A stretch of DNA of 64,000 bases, from contig NZ_NESK01000018.1 in the NCBI RefSeq assembly GCF_003063415.1, positions 1 to 64,000 of the forward strand, read 5' to 3'. This DNA comes from Limnohabitans sp. 2KL-17 (GTDB lineage Bacteria; Pseudomonadota; Gammaproteobacteria; Burkholderiales; Burkholderiaceae_C). Positions 13,775 through 62,238 of the stretch are shown here, one piece after another (position 1 is the first letter of the stretch; each line of letters begins with the position of its first letter). The notes beneath the pieces are model-generated. The model was not told the DNA's origin. It searched no databases and saw nothing but the letters and a program-made list of their open reading frames with translations. A program made the translations under genes and the position numbers.

Positions 13775-13799
13775 AGCCGTCTTATTCAGACGGCTTTTT
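13775..13799. terminator. Intrinsic terminator after rubredoxin
   Basis: The stem GCCGTCT/AGACGGC has loop TATTC and is followed by TTTTT. It ends the rubredoxin transcript. The stop codon of the convergent phrB gene (TAA, 13782-13784) lies inside the hairpin. Confidence 0.9.
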
Positions 13800-15260
13800 C
13801 TTGACCACCGCATACCGGGCCAGGGTTTTGTCGCGGGCTTCTGCGTGGTCAACGATGGGTGCGGGATAGGTTTTGCCGATCACCACGGATGCTGCCTGCA
13901 ACTCTAGGGGTTTGGCCAACCAGGGGGCGTGCAGGCCTTTGTCGGACAGTCCCGCCAGCTCGGGGGCATAGCGGCGAATGAACTTGCCTTCGGGGTCAAA
14001 TCGTTCGCTTTGGCTGATGGGGTTAAAGATCCGGAAATAAGGCTGGGCGTCACAACCGCTGGAGCTGGCCCATTGCCACCCGCCATTGTTGGCCGACAGG
14101 TCAAAATCGTTCAGATGCTCGGCAAAGTAGCGCTCGCCCCAGCGCCAGTCAATGCCCAGGTCTTTCACCAAAAAGCTCGCCACAACCATCCGCAGACGAT
14201 TGTGCATGTATCCCGTCTGGTTGATCTGCCGCATGGCCGCATCCACCAAGGGGTAGCCCGTGCGGGCCTGGCACCATGCATCAAACAGTTTGTGGGCATG
14301 CGGGCCATGCTCCCAACGGATGGCGTCGTAATCGGGCTTGAAGCTTTGCCCTTGGCCCACATGCGCAAAATTGTGCAGCACCTGCACATAAAAGTCGCGC
14401 CAGATCAGCTCGGACAGCCAGACACTTGCGCCAGGGCTGCCTGCCAGCATGCGGGGGTAGGCTGCTCGTGCCAGTTCTCGGATAGAGACCGTACCAAAGC
14501 GCAAATGCACGCTCAAGTAGCTCGGGCCTTTGACCGCCGGGAAGTTGCGGGTTTCTTCGTACTGGTCAATTCGGGTCAAAAATTCTTGCAGCAGGGCCTG
14601 GCCACCCGATTCTCCGGTTGGAATTTTGAGGGTTTGGAGGTTGGTGGGCTCAAAACCAATGTCTTGCAGGCTCGGGACCGGGTGGGCCAAATCGTCAGGT
14701 CGGGGGGCCAGGCGTGAGGCCAGGTGGGCCACCGGGTGGGCCTGCAAGTCCTCAGGGGTGACTTTTTTCAGCCAGGCATTTTTGTAAGGCGTGAACACGC
14801 TGAAGGGCTTGGCCATTTGGGTCAGCACTTCGTTGCGCTCGAACACCACATGGTCCTTGAAGGTGTGCAACACGATGCCATGGTCGGCCAGATGTCCGCG
14901 CACCTGAATGTCACGCGCCAGCGCCAGTGGTTCGTCATCGTGGTTGGCAAATACCGCCTGGGCCTGGACGTGCTGAGCCAATTTGACGATCTTGTCTTTG
15001 GCCACGCCGTGGCGCACGATCAGGCCCCCCTGTGGGTGGCCTGCCAGTTCGCGCAATTGGGCATCCACTTCGACCAGGGATTCGCGAATGAACTCAACCC
15101 GGCGATCGGCTCGGGGCAGTTTGTCCAGAATGTCGGTGTCAAACACGAACGCCACATGCACCCGCTGGCAGTGTTTCAGGGCTTGGTGCAGGGCCGCATG
15201 GTCGCTCACGCGCAGATCGCGTCGGAGCCAGACCAGGCCACAAGAAAAAGGGGTTTCCAT
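13782..15260 (-). CDS. phrB: Deoxyribodipyrimidine photolyase, class I CPD type
   Basis: This 492-residue FAD enzyme splits cyclobutane pyrimidine dimers using blue light. The N-terminal Rossmann antenna domain begins LVWLRRDLRVSDHAALHQAL. The FAD domain has the full class I set: LIWRDFYVQVL, ARTGYPLVDAAMRQINQTGY, MHNRLRMVVASFLVKDLGI, DWRWGERYFAEHLNDFDLSA and the canonical ANNGGWQWASSSGCDAQPYF, so the N5-contacting Asn and the first Trp of the electron relay are present. The ATG at 15260 is preferred over a codon at 15287. It diverges from the yqgE operon. The other two photolyase-family genes (57-60 kb) are clearly different types. Confidence 0.95.
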   Translation of the reverse strand: METPFSCGLVWLRRDLRVSDHAALHQALKHCQRVHVAFVFDTDILDKLPRADRRVEFIRESLVEVDAQLRELAGHPQGGLIVRHGVAKDKIVKLAQHVQAQAVFANHDDEPLALARDIQVRGHLADHGIVLHTFKDHVVFERNEVLTQMAKPFSVFTPYKNAWLKKVTPEDLQAHPVAHLASRLAPRPDDLAHPVPSLQDIGFEPTNLQTLKIPTGESGGQALLQEFLTRIDQYEETRNFPAVKGPSYLSVHLRFGTVSIRELARAAYPRMLAGSPGASVWLSELIWRDFYVQVLHNFAHVGQGQSFKPDYDAIRWEHGPHAHKLFDAWCQARTGYPLVDAAMRQINQTGYMHNRLRMVVASFLVKDLGIDWRWGERYFAEHLNDFDLSANNGGWQWASSSGCDAQPYFRIFNPISQSERFDPEGKFIRRYAPELAGLSDKGLHAPWLAKPLELQAASVVIGKTYPAPIVDHAEARDKTLARYAVVKKKPSE

Positions 15261-15334
15261 CAAGGTTTGCCGGGTTGGATCAATCAATGCACTCTTGGAC
15301 TCGCCCGCAGGGACGGGGCCGCTAAAATCGGGGG

Positions 15335-57143: not shown

Positions 57144-58457
57144 TCATCTGGCCAGCCAGACCTTTTGGTAACGCCCCTGCGGATCGTGGTCCTGGGTTTG
57201 TTTGGCAGGGTTGAATCGCCGGCCCTGACGCGGGTCGGTGCCACGGCCAGAGACATACAGCCAGTTGCCCTGGTTGCTGTACACATCAAAGTCCACCAGC
57301 TGCGATTCAAACCAGGCTGCGCCGGAGCGCCAGTCGCATGCCAGGTCGTGCACCAAATAGCTGGCCACTATCTGACGCATGCGGTTGGAGGTATAGCCCG
57401 TGCTGGCCAGCTCTCGCATGCCAGCATCCACGATGGGCTCGCCGGTGTTGCCATCGCACCAGCGTTGAAAGTCTTTGGGAAAGTGCGAGGGTCGGGCAAG
57501 CTCTGACAAGCCCCGGGCCGCGTAAAGCTGGCGGCCGTGTTGCAGGTGTAAAAATCTGAAGTTGTCACGCCAAAGCAACTCAAACCAAAGCCAATAAGTG
57601 CCGTCGTTGGCGCCGTGTTGCTGCTCATACGCCTGCAATGCCGCCCAGATCGTGCGCACTGACAATGCACCCGTGGCCAGCCATGGCGACCAGTGGGTGC
57701 TGGTGTACCGGCCTTGCAAGGCATTGCGGGTTTGCTTGTACCGATCGGGCCAGGGGGGCGTCAGGTAGCTTTGCAAATGGGCCAAAGCGCTGGTTTCGCC
57801 GCCTTGGCAACGGGGGAGGTGGTAGGGGAAATTTGACCGATCATCCGAGCCCAAGGTCTGGTCCACCTGGAGCAGGGCCCGGGGGTTGTCGGTCCATCCT
57901 GGCAGGGCGTTGAGCGGGGCCAGTTCAGGCGGGGGCGGCAAAAGGCTGGGCGCTGCCAGCGGTGCCAGGGGCAGCACACCTGCCGCTTCAATGCGCTGGC
58001 GAAACGCAGTGAAGACTTGCGGCATATCGAGCACGCTGAAGGGCAGTTTTTCGGGTTCCAGCAAGCTCGACTGCCACACGGTGTTTACCGTGAAGCCTGA
58101 GGCCCGCAAGGCTTGCACCTGGGCTTGTTCTGCGGGGGCGGCAATGTCTTCGCAAAAGATGGCTTGCGCCTGCACCCGCCTGGCGCACTCGGCCAAAGCC
58201 TCATGGGCAGGGCCATGCAGCAAGACCAATTGTTGGCCCAGGGCTTGCAGCGATGCGATCAGGTCTTGCAGGCTGTCGGCCACAAATCGTCTGCGGTGTG
58301 CACCCATGCGCCGAAAGCCCCAGGCCGTGGGTTCGTCTTGCACGGGGTCGTGGTTGTACACCAGCAGCAAGCGATCTGCTTGTTGCGCCGCTTGCAGCAA
58401 TGCGCGTGGGTCATGCAGGCGCAAGTCGCTTCGAAACCAGAAAATCGTGGTGCGCAT
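57144..58457 (-). CDS. Cryptochrome-DASH / DASH photolyase
   Basis: This 437-residue FAD and antenna-binding protein of the photolyase superfamily starts TTIFWFRSDLRLHDPRALLQ. It has WFELLWRDNFRFL and GEPIVDAGMRELASTGYTSN, then DFDVYSNQGNWLYVSGRGTD and DPRQGRRFNPAKQTQDHDPQ, the GxGxDPR/RxFNxxKQ pattern diagnostic of the DASH clade. DASH enzymes repair CPDs mainly in single-stranded or looped DNA and may signal. The ATG at 58457 lies 4 bases after the stop of the upstream photolyase-like gene, so both are in one operon. Confidence 0.92.
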   Translation of the reverse strand: MRTTIFWFRSDLRLHDPRALLQAAQQADRLLLVYNHDPVQDEPTAWGFRRMGAHRRRFVADSLQDLIASLQALGQQLVLLHGPAHEALAECARRVQAQAIFCEDIAAPAEQAQVQALRASGFTVNTVWQSSLLEPEKLPFSVLDMPQVFTAFRQRIEAAGVLPLAPLAAPSLLPPPPELAPLNALPGWTDNPRALLQVDQTLGSDDRSNFPYHLPRCQGGETSALAHLQSYLTPPWPDRYKQTRNALQGRYTSTHWSPWLATGALSVRTIWAALQAYEQQHGANDGTYWLWFELLWRDNFRFLHLQHGRQLYAARGLSELARPSHFPKDFQRWCDGNTGEPIVDAGMRELASTGYTSNRMRQIVASYLVHDLACDWRSGAAWFESQLVDFDVYSNQGNWLYVSGRGTDPRQGRRFNPAKQTQDHDPQGRYQKVWLAR

Positions 58458-58461
58458 GGTA

Positions 58462-60060
58462 TTAAAAATCAAAGCCCAGTTGCTGGCTGGTTGGGGTGTT
58501 GGATGCAGAGGACTTGATCGCTTTTTTGCGGCTGGTTTGGGGGGCGTCGCTGTCGCGTGTGAATACGTCGCGTTGGTGCCCGCTGCCGTGTTTGCGAGAG
58601 GCGTGTTTCTCGACAATGGCTTTTTTGCCGGCTTTCACACCAGGTTCAGCCCGGCGCGCATGCAGTGTGGCTTTGGAGGTGCGGGTGGCCTGGGCCAAAT
58701 CCACTACGGGCATGGGAACGTCGGCATCCGGCTCACAGCCCACGGTCAGTCCGCACTGGCGCTGCACTTCGGTGGGCATGCGCCAGGGCTCAAACAGCCA
58801 GGCATCGGGTACGCGCCGCATGTGCGGTAACCAGCGGCGCACAAAGATTCCTTTGGGGTCATGGTCTTGCGCTTGCTTGACTGGGTTGTACACCCGGGTG
58901 GTGTTGATGCCAGTGGTGCCCGATTGCATTTGAAGCTGGCTCCAGTGGATGCCGGGTTCGTAGTCTAGAAACTGGGTGGCCAGCCACTGGCCCACGGGCC
59001 GCCAGTCGAGCCACAACGGGTAAGCCGCCACCGACACCAGCATGGCCCGCATGCGAAAGTTGAGCCAGCCCGTTTCGCGCAGCATGACCACACAGGCGTC
59101 CACCATGGGCCAGCCTGTGCGTGCCGAGATCAGGGCTTCAAAGTGCGCATCGTTCCAGCCGTCTTCTCGCAGGCCGTCATAGCCCCGGTGCATGTTGCGC
59201 CATTCGATTTCAGGCTCGCTTTCAAGTTTCTGAATGAAGTGGCAGTGCCAATACAAACGACTCATGAATCCGGTCAGCCCCGCCCTGTGCCGGTGGGCTT
59301 GTGGCGGCAACACATCCAGGGTGGCCCGAGTGCTTTGCACAACTTCGCGCAGGCTGATGCAGCCCCAAGCCAGATACGCCGAAAGGCGTGAACACGCATC
59401 GGGTGAAGACAGGGGCGACGAAATCCCGCCCCGGTACCCCAGAGCCCGCGCATTCAAAAAACTGTGCAGGGTTTCGAGTGCCAGACTTCTTCCACCATGT
59501 TGGCGCTGTGCCGGGTTGTGTTTGAGCGCATCAGGTACGGTCATGACCTCGGGGCCGCTGGGCTCAGGGGCATCGAAGAATTTCAGCGCTGGCAAAACCT
59601 CTTGCGGCTTGGCCATTTGGGCTTCCCATCGGCCTTGCCAGGTGTTGCGGTTTTTCAGGCGGCGCACCACACCAAATGGCGCGAACTCGGCCCATGTCAG
59701 CCCCACGCTTTGGCACCATGCGCCCACTTGCAGATCGCGCTCGTAGGTGAAAGCGTTGCCAGTTTCCATGTGCGAGACCAGTTCGGCAAAAGGTGCATCC
59801 AGATGCAGCGATGCCAGCACTTCTAGGGCTGACCCTGTGCGCACCTGCAAGCTGCCACCCAAGGCGCGCAATTCGGTGTGCAGTTCAGCCAACGATTCGC
59901 TCACAAATTCAAAGTGCTGCAAAGCCGCATCGGGCTGCGCCCACAGACCTGGCTCAACAATGTAGAGGCACAGCACTGGCCCCTGGTTGGCAGCATGCAC
60001 CAGCGCCGCGTGGTCGTGCAGGCGCAGGTCGCGTTTGAACCAGACCACTCTGTAAGTCAC
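58462..60060 (-). CDS. Atypical photolyase/cryptochrome-family FAD protein
   Basis: This 532-residue protein has the superfamily N-domain (TYRVVWFKRDLRLHDHAALV) and FAD domain (ARTGWPMVDACVVMLRETGW and NFRMRAMLVSVAAYPLWLDW). The block that reads ANNGGWQW in class I enzymes is LDYEPGIHWSQLQMQSGTTG here (about residues 366-373), so the Asn that contacts flavin N5 is missing. This marks a separate clade whose activity I cannot assign. The last ~60 residues are basic (KATLHARRAEPGVKAGKKAI onward) and end QQLGFDF. The ATG at 60060 overlaps the preceding unknown gene by 4 bases. Confidence 0.88.
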   Translation of the reverse strand: MTYRVVWFKRDLRLHDHAALVHAANQGPVLCLYIVEPGLWAQPDAALQHFEFVSESLAELHTELRALGGSLQVRTGSALEVLASLHLDAPFAELVSHMETGNAFTYERDLQVGAWCQSVGLTWAEFAPFGVVRRLKNRNTWQGRWEAQMAKPQEVLPALKFFDAPEPSGPEVMTVPDALKHNPAQRQHGGRSLALETLHSFLNARALGYRGGISSPLSSPDACSRLSAYLAWGCISLREVVQSTRATLDVLPPQAHRHRAGLTGFMSRLYWHCHFIQKLESEPEIEWRNMHRGYDGLREDGWNDAHFEALISARTGWPMVDACVVMLRETGWLNFRMRAMLVSVAAYPLWLDWRPVGQWLATQFLDYEPGIHWSQLQMQSGTTGINTTRVYNPVKQAQDHDPKGIFVRRWLPHMRRVPDAWLFEPWRMPTEVQRQCGLTVGCEPDADVPMPVVDLAQATRTSKATLHARRAEPGVKAGKKAIVEKHASRKHGSGHQRDVFTRDSDAPQTSRKKAIKSSASNTPTSQQLGFDF

Positions 60061-60596
60061 AACCCTGTCCTTGATGCGGTGAATGCGTAGCGGTTGCCTT
60101 CAATGGGCACGCAATGCAACAAAGCCCGGGGCAGATCCGGCGCCTGTTGGCGCAGATACCTGCGAACAAAGTCAGCGGCTAGCCAAGGCGCTGTAGAACC
60201 ACTCCAAACGGCATTTTCCTGAATATTCCAATCGCCATGCGTCTGGCGTAACACCACGATGCTGGGGTTCAAGGTTTTGAAAGCCACTTCGGCAATGGCC
60301 CATTCGGCTTGCGTGTGCAGTTCAAGCAATGTGGCTTCCAAGGAGTCAGGCAGGCTGTGTTGTTGGATGGTGTGCAGAATTGCCGTGGCCTTGGTGGGTG
60401 TGGCGATGTCGTCGTGCACCGGGCGGCAGTCTTGGTGGAGTTGCCGCCAGTGCTCGGCTATCCAGCCTTTGGGGTCAAACTGCTGCCCGTTGACCTCCAG
60501 CAGGGTTCCGTTGTCGTGTCCAACCCAGTCGAAGTGGCTGTCGATGATCAGGACGCCGAGCACCCCCAGCAGGGTGGCGGCAACATGGCGTTTCAT
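60057..60596 (-). CDS. Unrecognised 179-residue membrane-anchored or secreted protein
   Basis: The N-terminus MKRHVAATLLGVLGVLIIDS is a signal peptide or single TM anchor. The rest is a mostly polar domain with LEVNGQQFDPKGWIAEHWRQ, CRPVHDDIATPTKATAILHT, ATLLELHTQAEWAIAEVAFK and a C-terminal LLHCVPIEGNRYAFTASRTG, including two Cys (about C57 and C162). I recognise no family. Its stop overlaps the photolyase-like start by 4 bases and it follows the MerR gene by 24 bases, so it belongs to the light-related operon. Codon use looks like its neighbours. Confidence 0.75.
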   Translation of the reverse strand: MKRHVAATLLGVLGVLIIDSHFDWVGHDNGTLLEVNGQQFDPKGWIAEHWRQLHQDCRPVHDDIATPTKATAILHTIQQHSLPDSLEATLLELHTQAEWAIAEVAFKTLNPSIVVLRQTHGDWNIQENAVWSGSTAPWLAADFVRRYLRQQAPDLPRALLHCVPIEGNRYAFTASRTGL

Positions 60597-60620
60597 GTGC
60601 TGATTTTTTTGTTGAAAGAA

Positions 60621-61619
60621 TCAAACACTTTCTGCCAATGAAATGCCTTCGTGGGTGGCAACCATGAGCAGTGCCTTTTCAAACAAGGCTCTGGCTGAAG
60701 CGGCCATGGTGTTCAGCTGCCGGTGCAGTTCGGCATCCTTGGGGCTTTCGTTCAGGCAATCGCGGCTGTAGTCTTCAAATTGAGCCAGTTGACCAATGAG
60801 TTCGGCCACGTGTCGAGGGCATTCGCACATCACCTGGCTCGGGATGTTGGCCACTCGCTGCAGAACGACATCTGAAAATTGGCGGGAGGGAATCGGCGTG
60901 GCTAAACTCTCCACCACCCACGTTGGGGCATAAAGCGAAGGCCGTGCACTCTGAATGATGGTTGTCAGGCCCAGGTCGTTCAGGGGTTCACGGTGCACCA
61001 AAAAAGATGCACGGCCCAGCCTGGCGATGGCGTTCAATTGCCCAAAGCTGTAAAGCACCACGGTTTGGCGCGCGGCCAACTGTTGAGACAAGGCCAAAAT
61101 CTGATCAGCGATGCTGTCGTTCAAGCCATTCACCGACACCATCAATACATCAGGGGCTTGGTCCAGTTGCGCGCCACTCGCTTCGGCAAGATCGGGCCAG
61201 ACCCGCTGGATGTGCAGGGCTTGCCCGAGTCTTGCCGAGCTGAATGTTTCAGACTGCAGGCGACTGGCCAGACTGGCCAGACTGGCACCGATCACCACCC
61301 ATGCGCCATTGGCCAGAGCCGGCTGCTGAGCTGGCGAGCTCGCAATGCTTGTGACTGTGTTCAGAAGTTGTTTCAATTGCGCGGCGGACAAACCCGCAAT
61401 CAGACTGATGCCATGTCCTTGGCCCGTGAGTGACTTCAGCAAAGTGGCTTTTTGCAAATCATCTTCGTTGTACAGCCTGTGATGCCCTTGGGTGGTGGTG
61501 GGCGAAAAAGCGTTGTAGCGCGTTTGCCAGACGCGCAGGGTAGGCACTGGCACGCCGCTGAGCTTGGAAACCACGCCGATGCGATAAAGCACCTGACTTT
61601 TTAAGAGGGTATTTGTCAT
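60621..61619 (-). CDS. MerR-family regulator with LitR/CarH-like layout
   Basis: This 332-residue protein has an N-terminal MerR HTH (RIGVVSKLSGVPVPTLRVWQ, then QTRYNAFSPTTTQGHHRLYN) and a helical linker. An alpha/beta region of about 150 residues (WVVIGASLASLASRL, APDVLMVSVNGLNDSIADQI, RQTVVLYSFGQLNAIARLG) resembles a B12-binding Rossmann fold, and a helical tail follows. Light-sensing LitR/CarH proteins share this layout and control photolyase genes, but their cobalamin-ligand His motifs (ExxxH, DxHxxG) are not visible here. It heads the unknown/photolyase-like/DASH operon and diverges from an Rrf2-type gene. Confidence 0.8.
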   Translation of the reverse strand: MTNTLLKSQVLYRIGVVSKLSGVPVPTLRVWQTRYNAFSPTTTQGHHRLYNEDDLQKATLLKSLTGQGHGISLIAGLSAAQLKQLLNTVTSIASSPAQQPALANGAWVVIGASLASLASRLQSETFSSARLGQALHIQRVWPDLAEASGAQLDQAPDVLMVSVNGLNDSIADQILALSQQLAARQTVVLYSFGQLNAIARLGRASFLVHREPLNDLGLTTIIQSARPSLYAPTWVVESLATPIPSRQFSDVVLQRVANIPSQVMCECPRHVAELIGQLAQFEDYSRDCLNESPKDAELHRQLNTMAASARALFEKALLMVATHEGISLAESV

Positions 61620-61743
61620 TGTCTTGTTTATGTATTGAGTAGATATTTTACGGTATAAATAGAAATTTTAAGAAAATAAATAGGTTATGAATGGATTTTT
61701 ATGGTTTAAACCATACAATGTCCATTCAAATGTGGAGCAAATA
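61620..61743. promoter_or_regulatory. AT-rich divergent control region (MerR / Rrf2)
   Basis: This 124-base region is strongly AT-rich. It must hold promoters for the MerR-led operon (minus) and the Rrf2-type gene (plus). It contains the 16-bp palindrome at 61700-61715. TAAAAT and TATAAAT hexamers occur on both strands near 61650-61670. Confidence 0.55.
61700..61715. promoter_or_regulatory. Perfect 16-bp palindrome, candidate operator
   Basis: TATGGTTTAAACCATA is identical to its reverse complement. It lies 28 bases upstream of the Rrf2-type ATG (61744). A homodimeric regulator, either the Rrf2-type or the MerR protein, is the likely binder. Confidence 0.65.
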
Positions 61744-62238
61744 ATGATCCTGAAGAAAACAGCCAAGGCCGTCGATATTGCGGTTTTCATTACTTCACGC
61801 TCAGCGATAGAGCCTGTGACGACAGAAGAGATTGCTTCGGGTTTGGGGCTGTCATCCTCATACACCGAGTCAATACTCAAAGAGCTACGCGAAGCAGGTT
61901 TGATCCGTGCCCACCGCGGTCCGGGTGGGGGCTATCAAATTCGTGGCAACCCTGAAGACATCAGCTTGTGGGATGTGGTGAAACACTTTGAAGTGGTGCA
62001 CAGCTTTGACGAGGTGTACCCTGACAACTCACACCCTATGAAAGTGCTGGAGTCTGAAATTCAGCGTCACCTCCAAGAAGCCTTGGCATCGCAAACCCTG
62101 GACGATGTGGCTGTTCCCTTCATGCCACGTGGCGCCAGCGTGTCGTCCATGCTGGGCCAATTTCGCCTTAAACCGATGCCTGCACTCTTCATACCGAAGG
62201 CGCCAAACTCTGTTTTCCAACTGAGCATGATGCTTTAA
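61744..62238 (+). CDS. Rrf2-family transcriptional regulator lacking Fe-S cysteines
   Basis: Starting at the ATG at 61744, the 164-residue protein has the Rrf2 winged helix: ILKKTAKAVDIAVFITSRSA, TTEEIASGLGLSSSYTESIL, KELREAGLIRAHRGPGGGYQ, IRGNPEDISLWDVVKHFEVV. The usual three-cysteine cluster site of IscR/NsrR-type members is absent; no Cys occurs in the protein. It must therefore sense something else or act constitutively. The C-terminal 80 residues are longer than in IscR and not recognised. It is divergent from the MerR-led operon and upstream of a PHA synthase gene. Confidence 0.85.
   Translation: MILKKTAKAVDIAVFITSRSAIEPVTTEEIASGLGLSSSYTESILKELREAGLIRAHRGPGGGYQIRGNPEDISLWDVVKHFEVVHSFDEVYPDNSHPMKVLESEIQRHLQEALASQTLDDVAVPFMPRGASVSSMLGQFRLKPMPALFIPKAPNSVFQLSMML

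Follow-up and report, generated by a model that had tools for sequence, protein, structure and literature searches.

Photolyase operons under the control of MerR/LitR-type regulators are already known in bacteria. For example, the sections cited here of a report on Pseudomonas describe class II LitR clusters in which a MerR-type regulator lies beside photolyase/cryptochrome, short-chain dehydrogenase and unknown genes (PMC9758184), and those of a report on Vibrio cholerae describe VCA0056-0058, encoding a MerR-like protein, phr and a hypothetical protein, as raised under blue light (PMC5241685). We analyzed a 64,000-nucleotide stretch of Limnohabitans sp. 2KL-17 (contig NZ_NESK01000018.1, positions 1 to 64,000; hereafter the window), in which a MerR gene and two photolyase-family genes share an operon with the gene for a 179-residue protein, U179, whose family has no name. 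An earlier sequence-only reading of this DNA had noted MerR/LitR control of photolyase genes as established in other bacteria. The U179 family is non-randomly tied to photolyase-family genes, and the module extends past MerR to a divergent Rrf2 gene; we favor, with a probability of about 60%, the reading that U179 is the envelope arm of a light- or ultraviolet (UV)-stress regulon controlled by Rrf2 and MerR.

The operon occupies the minus strand and begins with a 332-residue MerR-family regulator (60621-61619; PF13411, E 8.1e-12) that has a CarH/LitR-like N-terminal helix-turn-helix (HTH), followed by U179 (60057-60596), which combines an N-terminal signal anchor with a probably periplasmic domain, then by a 532-residue photolyase-family flavoprotein with a basic C-terminal tail and a GTG start, here called PHL (58462-60060), and a 437-residue DASH-family cryptochrome (57144-58457; TIGR02765). 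The intergenic gaps are 24, -4 and 4 nt; with start and stop codons checked, the four packed genes of the sequence-only reading are all present. That reading was right about these four genes and overlooked a fifth, the divergent Rrf2-family regulator (61744-62238, plus strand; PF02082), which is separated from the MerR gene by a 124-bp intergenic region. The GTG start of PHL sits within the stop of U179 in a 4-nt overlap, and translational coupling of the two genes is likely since both share this GTGA. The start of DASH is more likely the ATG at 58457, because a 490-codon open reading frame (ORF) with a TTG start would overlap PHL.

U179 is a real gene, as an alignment of 101 sequences, among them that of the window, has 18 invariant columns. 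Neither Pfam nor NCBIfam gave a match to it at E values up to 1, and three marginal matches among PHROGs, the best of them to an endolysin family at E 0.011, were judged to be chance. When the 101 members were compared with Pfam at E up to 0.1, 10 families were matched by one member each, with no family in common; a U179 profile found no sequence relation among PDB chains (best E 0.25), and U179 was absent from plasmid and phage records at E up to 0.01. The sequence-only reading had described an unrecognized, exported or anchored protein and had held that membership in a known, unrelated family would speak against its proposal; the searches of Pfam, NCBIfam and PHROGs yielded no convincing family, and prediction backs the N-terminal helix.

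Homologs at E <= 0.001 number 241 in a sequence search and 363 in a profile search, and those traced belong almost exclusively to Burkholderiales, chiefly Limnohabitans. U179 is carried by 75 of 90 genomes of the genus, by 14 of 399 in a draw from the family, by 2 of 399 in a draw from the order and by 1 of 369 in a draw from the class, namely the window's own; one weak match outside the family (G038, L164), which has an internal stop, failed confirmation. A scan of named genomes, which used a single peptide pattern and missed relatives lacking it, provided the 80 loci examined among 138 confirmed U179 loci. These come mainly from Limnohabitans and Comamonadaceae/Burkholderiales assemblies, with a few Rubrivivax, Polaromonas and Polynucleobacter bins, and two loci titled Akkermansia and Singulisphaera are probably mis-binned.

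The 75 genomes of the genus contain 77 copies of U179, and a photolyase-family gene lies within 3 kb of 67 of them. PHL itself is found within that distance of 56 copies, in 52 cases within 100 nt; of the remaining 21, 11 adjoin a photolyase-family gene of another kind or, in one case, a fragment of PHL where the contig ends, and 3 adjoin MerR and/or Rrf2 only. A photolyase lies within 3 kb of U179 in 56 of the 80 named loci, with MerR/Rrf2 only in a further 3; the corresponding counts are 35 and 3 for the 50 named loci that have 3 kb on both sides, and 21 and 3 for the 45 divergent named loci, the other 21 of which have neither. These neighbors were called by phmmer against reference proteins of the same loci at E 1e-5 (1e-6 or 1e-8 in some scans), with G1220 counted, by its coordinates, as the same contig as L118. 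Because the calls rest on such reference proteins, unusual photolyases may be missed, and contig edges cut some loci short. The sequence-only reading would have been undone by homologs lying mostly away from photolyase genes; this is contradicted by the counts in the genus and in the named loci, and comes closer to the case outside the genus, where linkage is 1 in 8.

U179 and PHL also occur together across genomes. Among the 90 genomes of the genus, 67 have both, 8 U179 alone, 5 PHL alone and 10 neither (Fisher 1.4e-5), and among 56 good assemblies the respective numbers are 47, 1, 2 and 6 (Fisher 5.8e-6), with PHL presence cut at E 1e-60 and one genome whose PHL fragment borders the end of a contig (G1197) scored as PHL-negative. 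Two genomes, G1186 and G1207, have two U179 genes each, every copy beside its own PHL. Gene arrangements around U179 vary (ARRANGEMENTS differ) and include U179-PHL-DASH, MerR-U179-PHL-FeS-BCP-like, PHL-U179, U179 with a short photolyase whose flavin adenine dinucleotide (FAD) domain is N-terminal, and Rrf2-U179 pointing away from MerR-PHL; in L123 and L137, U179 and PHL are in opposite orientation. The neighbors span at least four photolyase types, namely PHL, DASH, FeS-BCP-like and the short inverted type, and at one locus (L069/L172) U179 and DASH are 51 nt apart, with PHL on another contig of that genome (G1221) and not between them. On a U179 tree of 72 chosen rows, the presence of a photolyase within 3 kb must change at least 14 times; such a neighbor is absent from a five-row outer group (L153, L154, L157, L160, L162) and from a solitary clade of nine rows, and the other large branches have one.

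Computational prediction places most of U179 outside the cytoplasm. In an AlphaFold2 (AF2) model with a predicted local distance difference test score (pLDDT) of 86.7, residues 3-21 (60534-60590, minus strand) form a helix that hydropathy and flanking charge also mark as a membrane-spanning signal anchor. The Kyte-Doolittle (KD) value of this helix, KD(17), has a median of 1.95 over the 101 sequences; net charge on its N-terminal side is +1 to +3 in all 101, and that on its C-terminal side is 0 or negative in 97. By computation, then, U179 has the N-terminal hydrophobic helix and positive-inside charge of a single-span, N-in signal anchor, a topology predicted to place no more than about four residues on the cytoplasmic side. 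The folded domain (residues 22-171; 60084-60533, minus strand) probably faces the periplasm, its invariant C57 and C162 probably form a disulfide, and its predicted fold is weakly cystatin/NTF2-like.

The divergent gene product scores 79.9 bits against PF02082 (cut-off 30), which identifies an Rrf2 domain; its ORF is listed from 61687, and its likely start, the conserved MILKKTAKAVDI at which orthologs begin, is at 61744. IscR/NsrR-type Rrf2 proteins sense via Fe-S, for which they use cysteine ligands. The window protein has no cysteine and lacks such ligands; because 30 of 34 orthologs have none either (the other 4 have one), Fe-S sensing is unlikely here. The HTH of the MerR protein resembles that of CarH, which was matched over residues 8-64 (E 1.6e-4), and no B12-binding Pfam match was found in it at E up to 1; the CarH model NF052513 gave 25.1 bits, below its cut-off of 400. 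An AF2 model (pLDDT 88.7; predicted template-modeling score, pTM, 0.52) predicts a Rossmann-like middle and C-terminal helices. Foldseek placed CarH (5c8d) first (E 5e-5), but with template-modeling (TM) scores of 0.20-0.25 and root-mean-square deviations of 14-18 that amount to no good superposition, and the domain order presumably differs from that of CarH. The C-terminal helices after the Rossmann-like domain contain a CECPxH...C motif (C265, E266, C267, P268, H270 and C288) that is invariant in 65 sequences, and this region may bind metal, heme or a cluster.

Sequences between the two regulator genes differ according to whether MerR is present. A TATGAC-N6-GTCAYA dyad precedes Rrf2 in 23 of 23 loci without MerR and in 0 of 11 loci with it, whereas TCYAYTCA occurs in 11 of 11 MerR loci (two copies in 7, one in 4) and in 0 of 23 of the others; these counts cover the window and L060-L069 for MerR loci and L071-L093 for MerR-less ones, leaving out L070, which has no usable Rrf2 start, and L094, which has no upstream sequence. 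In the window, the repeat TCTACTCA (61636-61643, minus strand), just upstream of merR, is a candidate MerR site, and a second repeat, TCCATTCA (61688-61695, minus strand), lies 52 bp from it. At the position of the dyad, MerR loci carry other sequence, in the window the 16-bp perfect palindrome TATGGTTTAAACCATA (61700-61715), a candidate operator upstream of Rrf2. A conserved perfect palindrome as operator was considered and rejected, since the window's 16-mer is unshared and the MerR-less clade has only the dyad at the same place. The operators are sites that we infer from these upstream signatures. In the MerR-less clade, the gene nearest to the divergent Rrf2 is U179.

Limnohabitans is a genus of sunlit fresh water. 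Under the reading of U179 as an envelope arm, the four genes and the divergent Rrf2 would constitute a light- or UV-stress module, in which U179 is an N-in inner-membrane signal-anchor protein presenting a small, probably disulfide-bonded cystatin/NTF2-like domain to the periplasm. It would be made together with DNA photolyases and act parallel to them, binding none of them. Rrf2, probably a repressor, would occupy the predicted operator formed by the dyad that precedes its own gene, the CarH/LitR-like MerR, where present, would act at predicted sites in the TCYAYTCA repeats, and the two would presumably turn on expression of the operon in response to light or photo-oxidative stress. The role of U179 in the periplasm would be protective; its biochemical act can be guessed at, and perhaps it binds a photosensitizer, a lipid or a small metabolite. 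A shared process, envelope light stress, fits better than a protein partnership because U179 accompanies different photolyases, persists without adjacent PHL in L069/L172 and is almost without a cytoplasmic part. Several observations weigh against this reading. No photolyase, MerR or Rrf2 lies within 3 kb of 7 of the 77 copies in the genus, some of them at contig ends, of 21 of the 80 named loci, or of 12 of the 50 whose flanks reach 3 kb in both directions. The nine-row clade (L099, L100, L101, L103, L111, L127, L129, L131 and L133) looks solitary, with no recognized light-related neighbor in flanks that are partly incomplete. Outside the genus, in an even draw from the family, a photolyase adjoins U179 in 1 of 8 genomes; of the others, 5 have a short-chain dehydrogenase no more than about 15 nt away, 1 has a DUF2237 gene that overlaps, and 1 has nothing recognized, some flanks being short. 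In addition, the test of co-occurrence ignores shared ancestry, the membrane segment is short, with KD under 1.6 in 9 of 101 sequences, and matches to the fold are weak, Foldseek having given nothing under E 1e-3, cystatin-like and NTF2-like folds included. The contrast in upstream motifs is suggestive only, because it compares two clades and not independent events, and the cysteine-free state is not family-wide, since in two other clades the Rrf2 protein encoded next to U179 contains 6 cysteines and 1 cysteine, respectively.

The sequence-only reading had instead suggested that U179 is an anchor, chaperone or output partner of the adjacent flavoprotein. A direct physical partnership would be in keeping with the GTGA overlap of U179 and PHL, the same ORF overlap being found in L063, L065, L068, L076, L077, L084, L085 and L094, with PHL lying within 100 nt of 52 of 77 copies in the genus, and with the duplicated U179-PHL pairs of G1186 and G1207. 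Nevertheless, the neighbor of U179 switches among PHL, DASH, short inverted-type and FeS-BCP-like proteins, U179 stays beside DASH with no PHL between in L069/L172, some homologs have no photolyase, relatives of PHL occur on plasmid records, where U179 was found on none, and the predicted cytoplasmic tail offers about four residues for contact; the suggestion is not supported, and we consider such a partnership very improbable. The tail bears equally on the idea that U179 is a component on the regulator side, sensing an envelope or photo-oxidative signal and feeding back on Rrf2 or MerR. This idea draws on loci where U179 adjoins MerR and/or Rrf2 with no photolyase seen (L047, L056, L098, L122, L138, L178) and on the place of U179 as first gene after the divergent Rrf2 in the MerR-less clade. 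A further protein would be needed for such feedback, however, as the short predicted tail could not extend to a regulator, and some U179 genes stand without Rrf2 or MerR, which makes this role unlikely.

U179 might also be a generic envelope protein that became a chance member of the operon and was carried along by shared ancestry, as the solitary clade of homologs and the low photolyase linkage outside the genus (1 of 8 sampled genomes) would suggest. Against this stand the neighbor-state changes on the U179 tree (at least 14), the several arrangements with different photolyase classes, and the opposite orientations in L123 and L137. A control for synteny points the same way: the EamA gene that lies downstream of DASH in the window and its close kin turned up at none of the 45 divergent loci (0 of 45), so the linkage of U179 to photolyases is more than synteny alone can explain. 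Hitch-hiking is therefore a distinctly unlikely explanation.

The two photolyase-family proteins of the operon are additional members of their family, because the window also encodes a canonical photolyase in which the Trp motif, NNGGWQW, is complete (13782-15287, minus strand; FAD domain 13809-14420); these three account for the PF03441 matches of the genome. DASH scores 441.7 bits against TIGR02765 (cut-off 317.05), as expected of a DASH cryptochrome; in Limnohabitans planktonicus (L033/L065) DASH consists of two overlapping ORFs, either a broken gene or a sequencing error. PHL belongs to the superfamily, with PF03441 at 191.3 bits and PF00875 at 80.2 bits, both above cut-off. It matched five NCBIfam photolyase/cryptochrome models without reaching the cut-off of any, among them TIGR02765 (141.1 bits against 317.05) and the class I cyclobutane pyrimidine dimer (CPD) photolyase model NF007955 (138.4 bits against 506). 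Where the canonical photolyase of the window has HNR and NNGGWQW, five of five aligned PHL proteins from different clades have NFR and IHWSQ[LM]QM. Compared with that protein and with chains 1dnp and 2e0i, which we take to be the E. coli and Sulfolobus photolyases, F replaces the active-site Asn, and L or M replace the FAD-proximal Trp and a neighboring Trp (presumably N341, W382 and W384 of E. coli photolyase), so PHL lacks the Asn and Trp residues of a class I CPD photolyase. Relatives at 38-49% identity among the best 25 of 190 matches on plasmid records, annotated as photo-lyase or FAD-binding, make PHL part of a broad existing group; DUF2256 follows PHL in two of four plasmid records viewed, where gene tables are incomplete. 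Assignment of PHL to the bifunctional PhrSph98 type was not adopted, as its Tyr/Trp spacing, compared by eye with the part of the description used, is mismatched (PMC9649867). Beside U179 in L135 (L054) is a 388-residue photolyase with PF03441 at residues 67-194 and no PF00875, and in this inverted domain order it resembles the NewPHL/short photolyase-like proteins as described in the sections cited (PMC13274461, PMC9426592), a type that the window lacks. As applied here to proteins encoded at other loci, the labels NewPHL and FeS-BCP are based on Pfam matches and the order of domains.

Other neighbors of U179 also differ between clades. DUF2237 lies beyond Rrf2 in 24 of 24 MerR-less loci (L070-L093) and within 6 kb in 0 of 10 MerR loci (L060-L069), and in the window's genome it is on another contig; according to the portion cited of a study on this gene, knocking it out in Synechocystis changed phototaxis, and its distribution is biased toward phototrophs (PMC5932025). 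Together with the HiPIP, Rrf2 and MerR genes near U179, DUF2237 is counted in favor of the light-stress reading. In L122 (803-1123) and L138 (1107-1430), an unnamed protein of ~106 residues is encoded between Rrf2 and a DCC1-like gene, and the L122 copy has no Pfam match. The solitary U179 homologs of L100, L101 and L103 are convergent with a ferredoxin-like gene of what, by eye, appears to be an isc-like cluster. Genes for high-potential iron-sulfur proteins (HiPIP) recur near U179, at distances below 40 nt in L047 and L055 and within 3 kb in L107, L114 and L138. It is conceivable, if doubtful, that U179 is the founding member of a family of photoprotection proteins, anchored in the membrane and facing the periplasm, whose domain binds a photosensitizer or, because some relatives adjoin HiPIP, a redox partner, and that the cysteine-free Rrf2 together with the CarH-like, B12-less MerR and its CECPxH...C motif forms an undescribed light/redox switch for photolyase genes.

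Bacterial defense against light beyond DNA repair is less well known, and U179, as a recurrent and probably envelope-bound neighbor of several photolyase types in Limnohabitans, provides a concrete gene for asking whether the response to sunlight includes a separate branch in the envelope. If periplasmic photoprotection is indeed its role, this response would reach outside the cytoplasm; the locus also points to Rrf2 control of photolyases. Literature searches on LitR, on Limnohabitans or Rrf2 with photolyase, and on translational coupling found no paper on U179, and that on Rrf2 with photolyase none on Rrf2 control of photolyases. Relative to the literature searched, the new features are the recurrent, predicted membrane-anchored partner family and the divergent gene for a cysteine-free Rrf2.

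Like the window locus, the Pseudomonas LitR clusters have a MerR-type regulator adjoining photolyase/cryptochrome genes, but their sites are TGTACA repeats, as opposed to the candidate TCYAYTCA repeats found here, and no Rrf2 gene is named in the sections cited (PMC9758184); in the class draw, a U179 homolog was not found beyond the window genome (1 of 369). The V. cholerae locus likewise unites MerR, a photolyase and an uncharacterized gene in one predicted operon, but has one photolyase in the account cited (PMC5241685), and the class draw gave no relative of U179 other than the window's own. Finally, the operon that joins a photolyase to YbgA, a partner of unknown function that we take to be cytoplasmic and unrelated to U179, similarly combines a photolyase with an unrelated protein of unknown function, whereas U179 is predicted to be anchored in the membrane.

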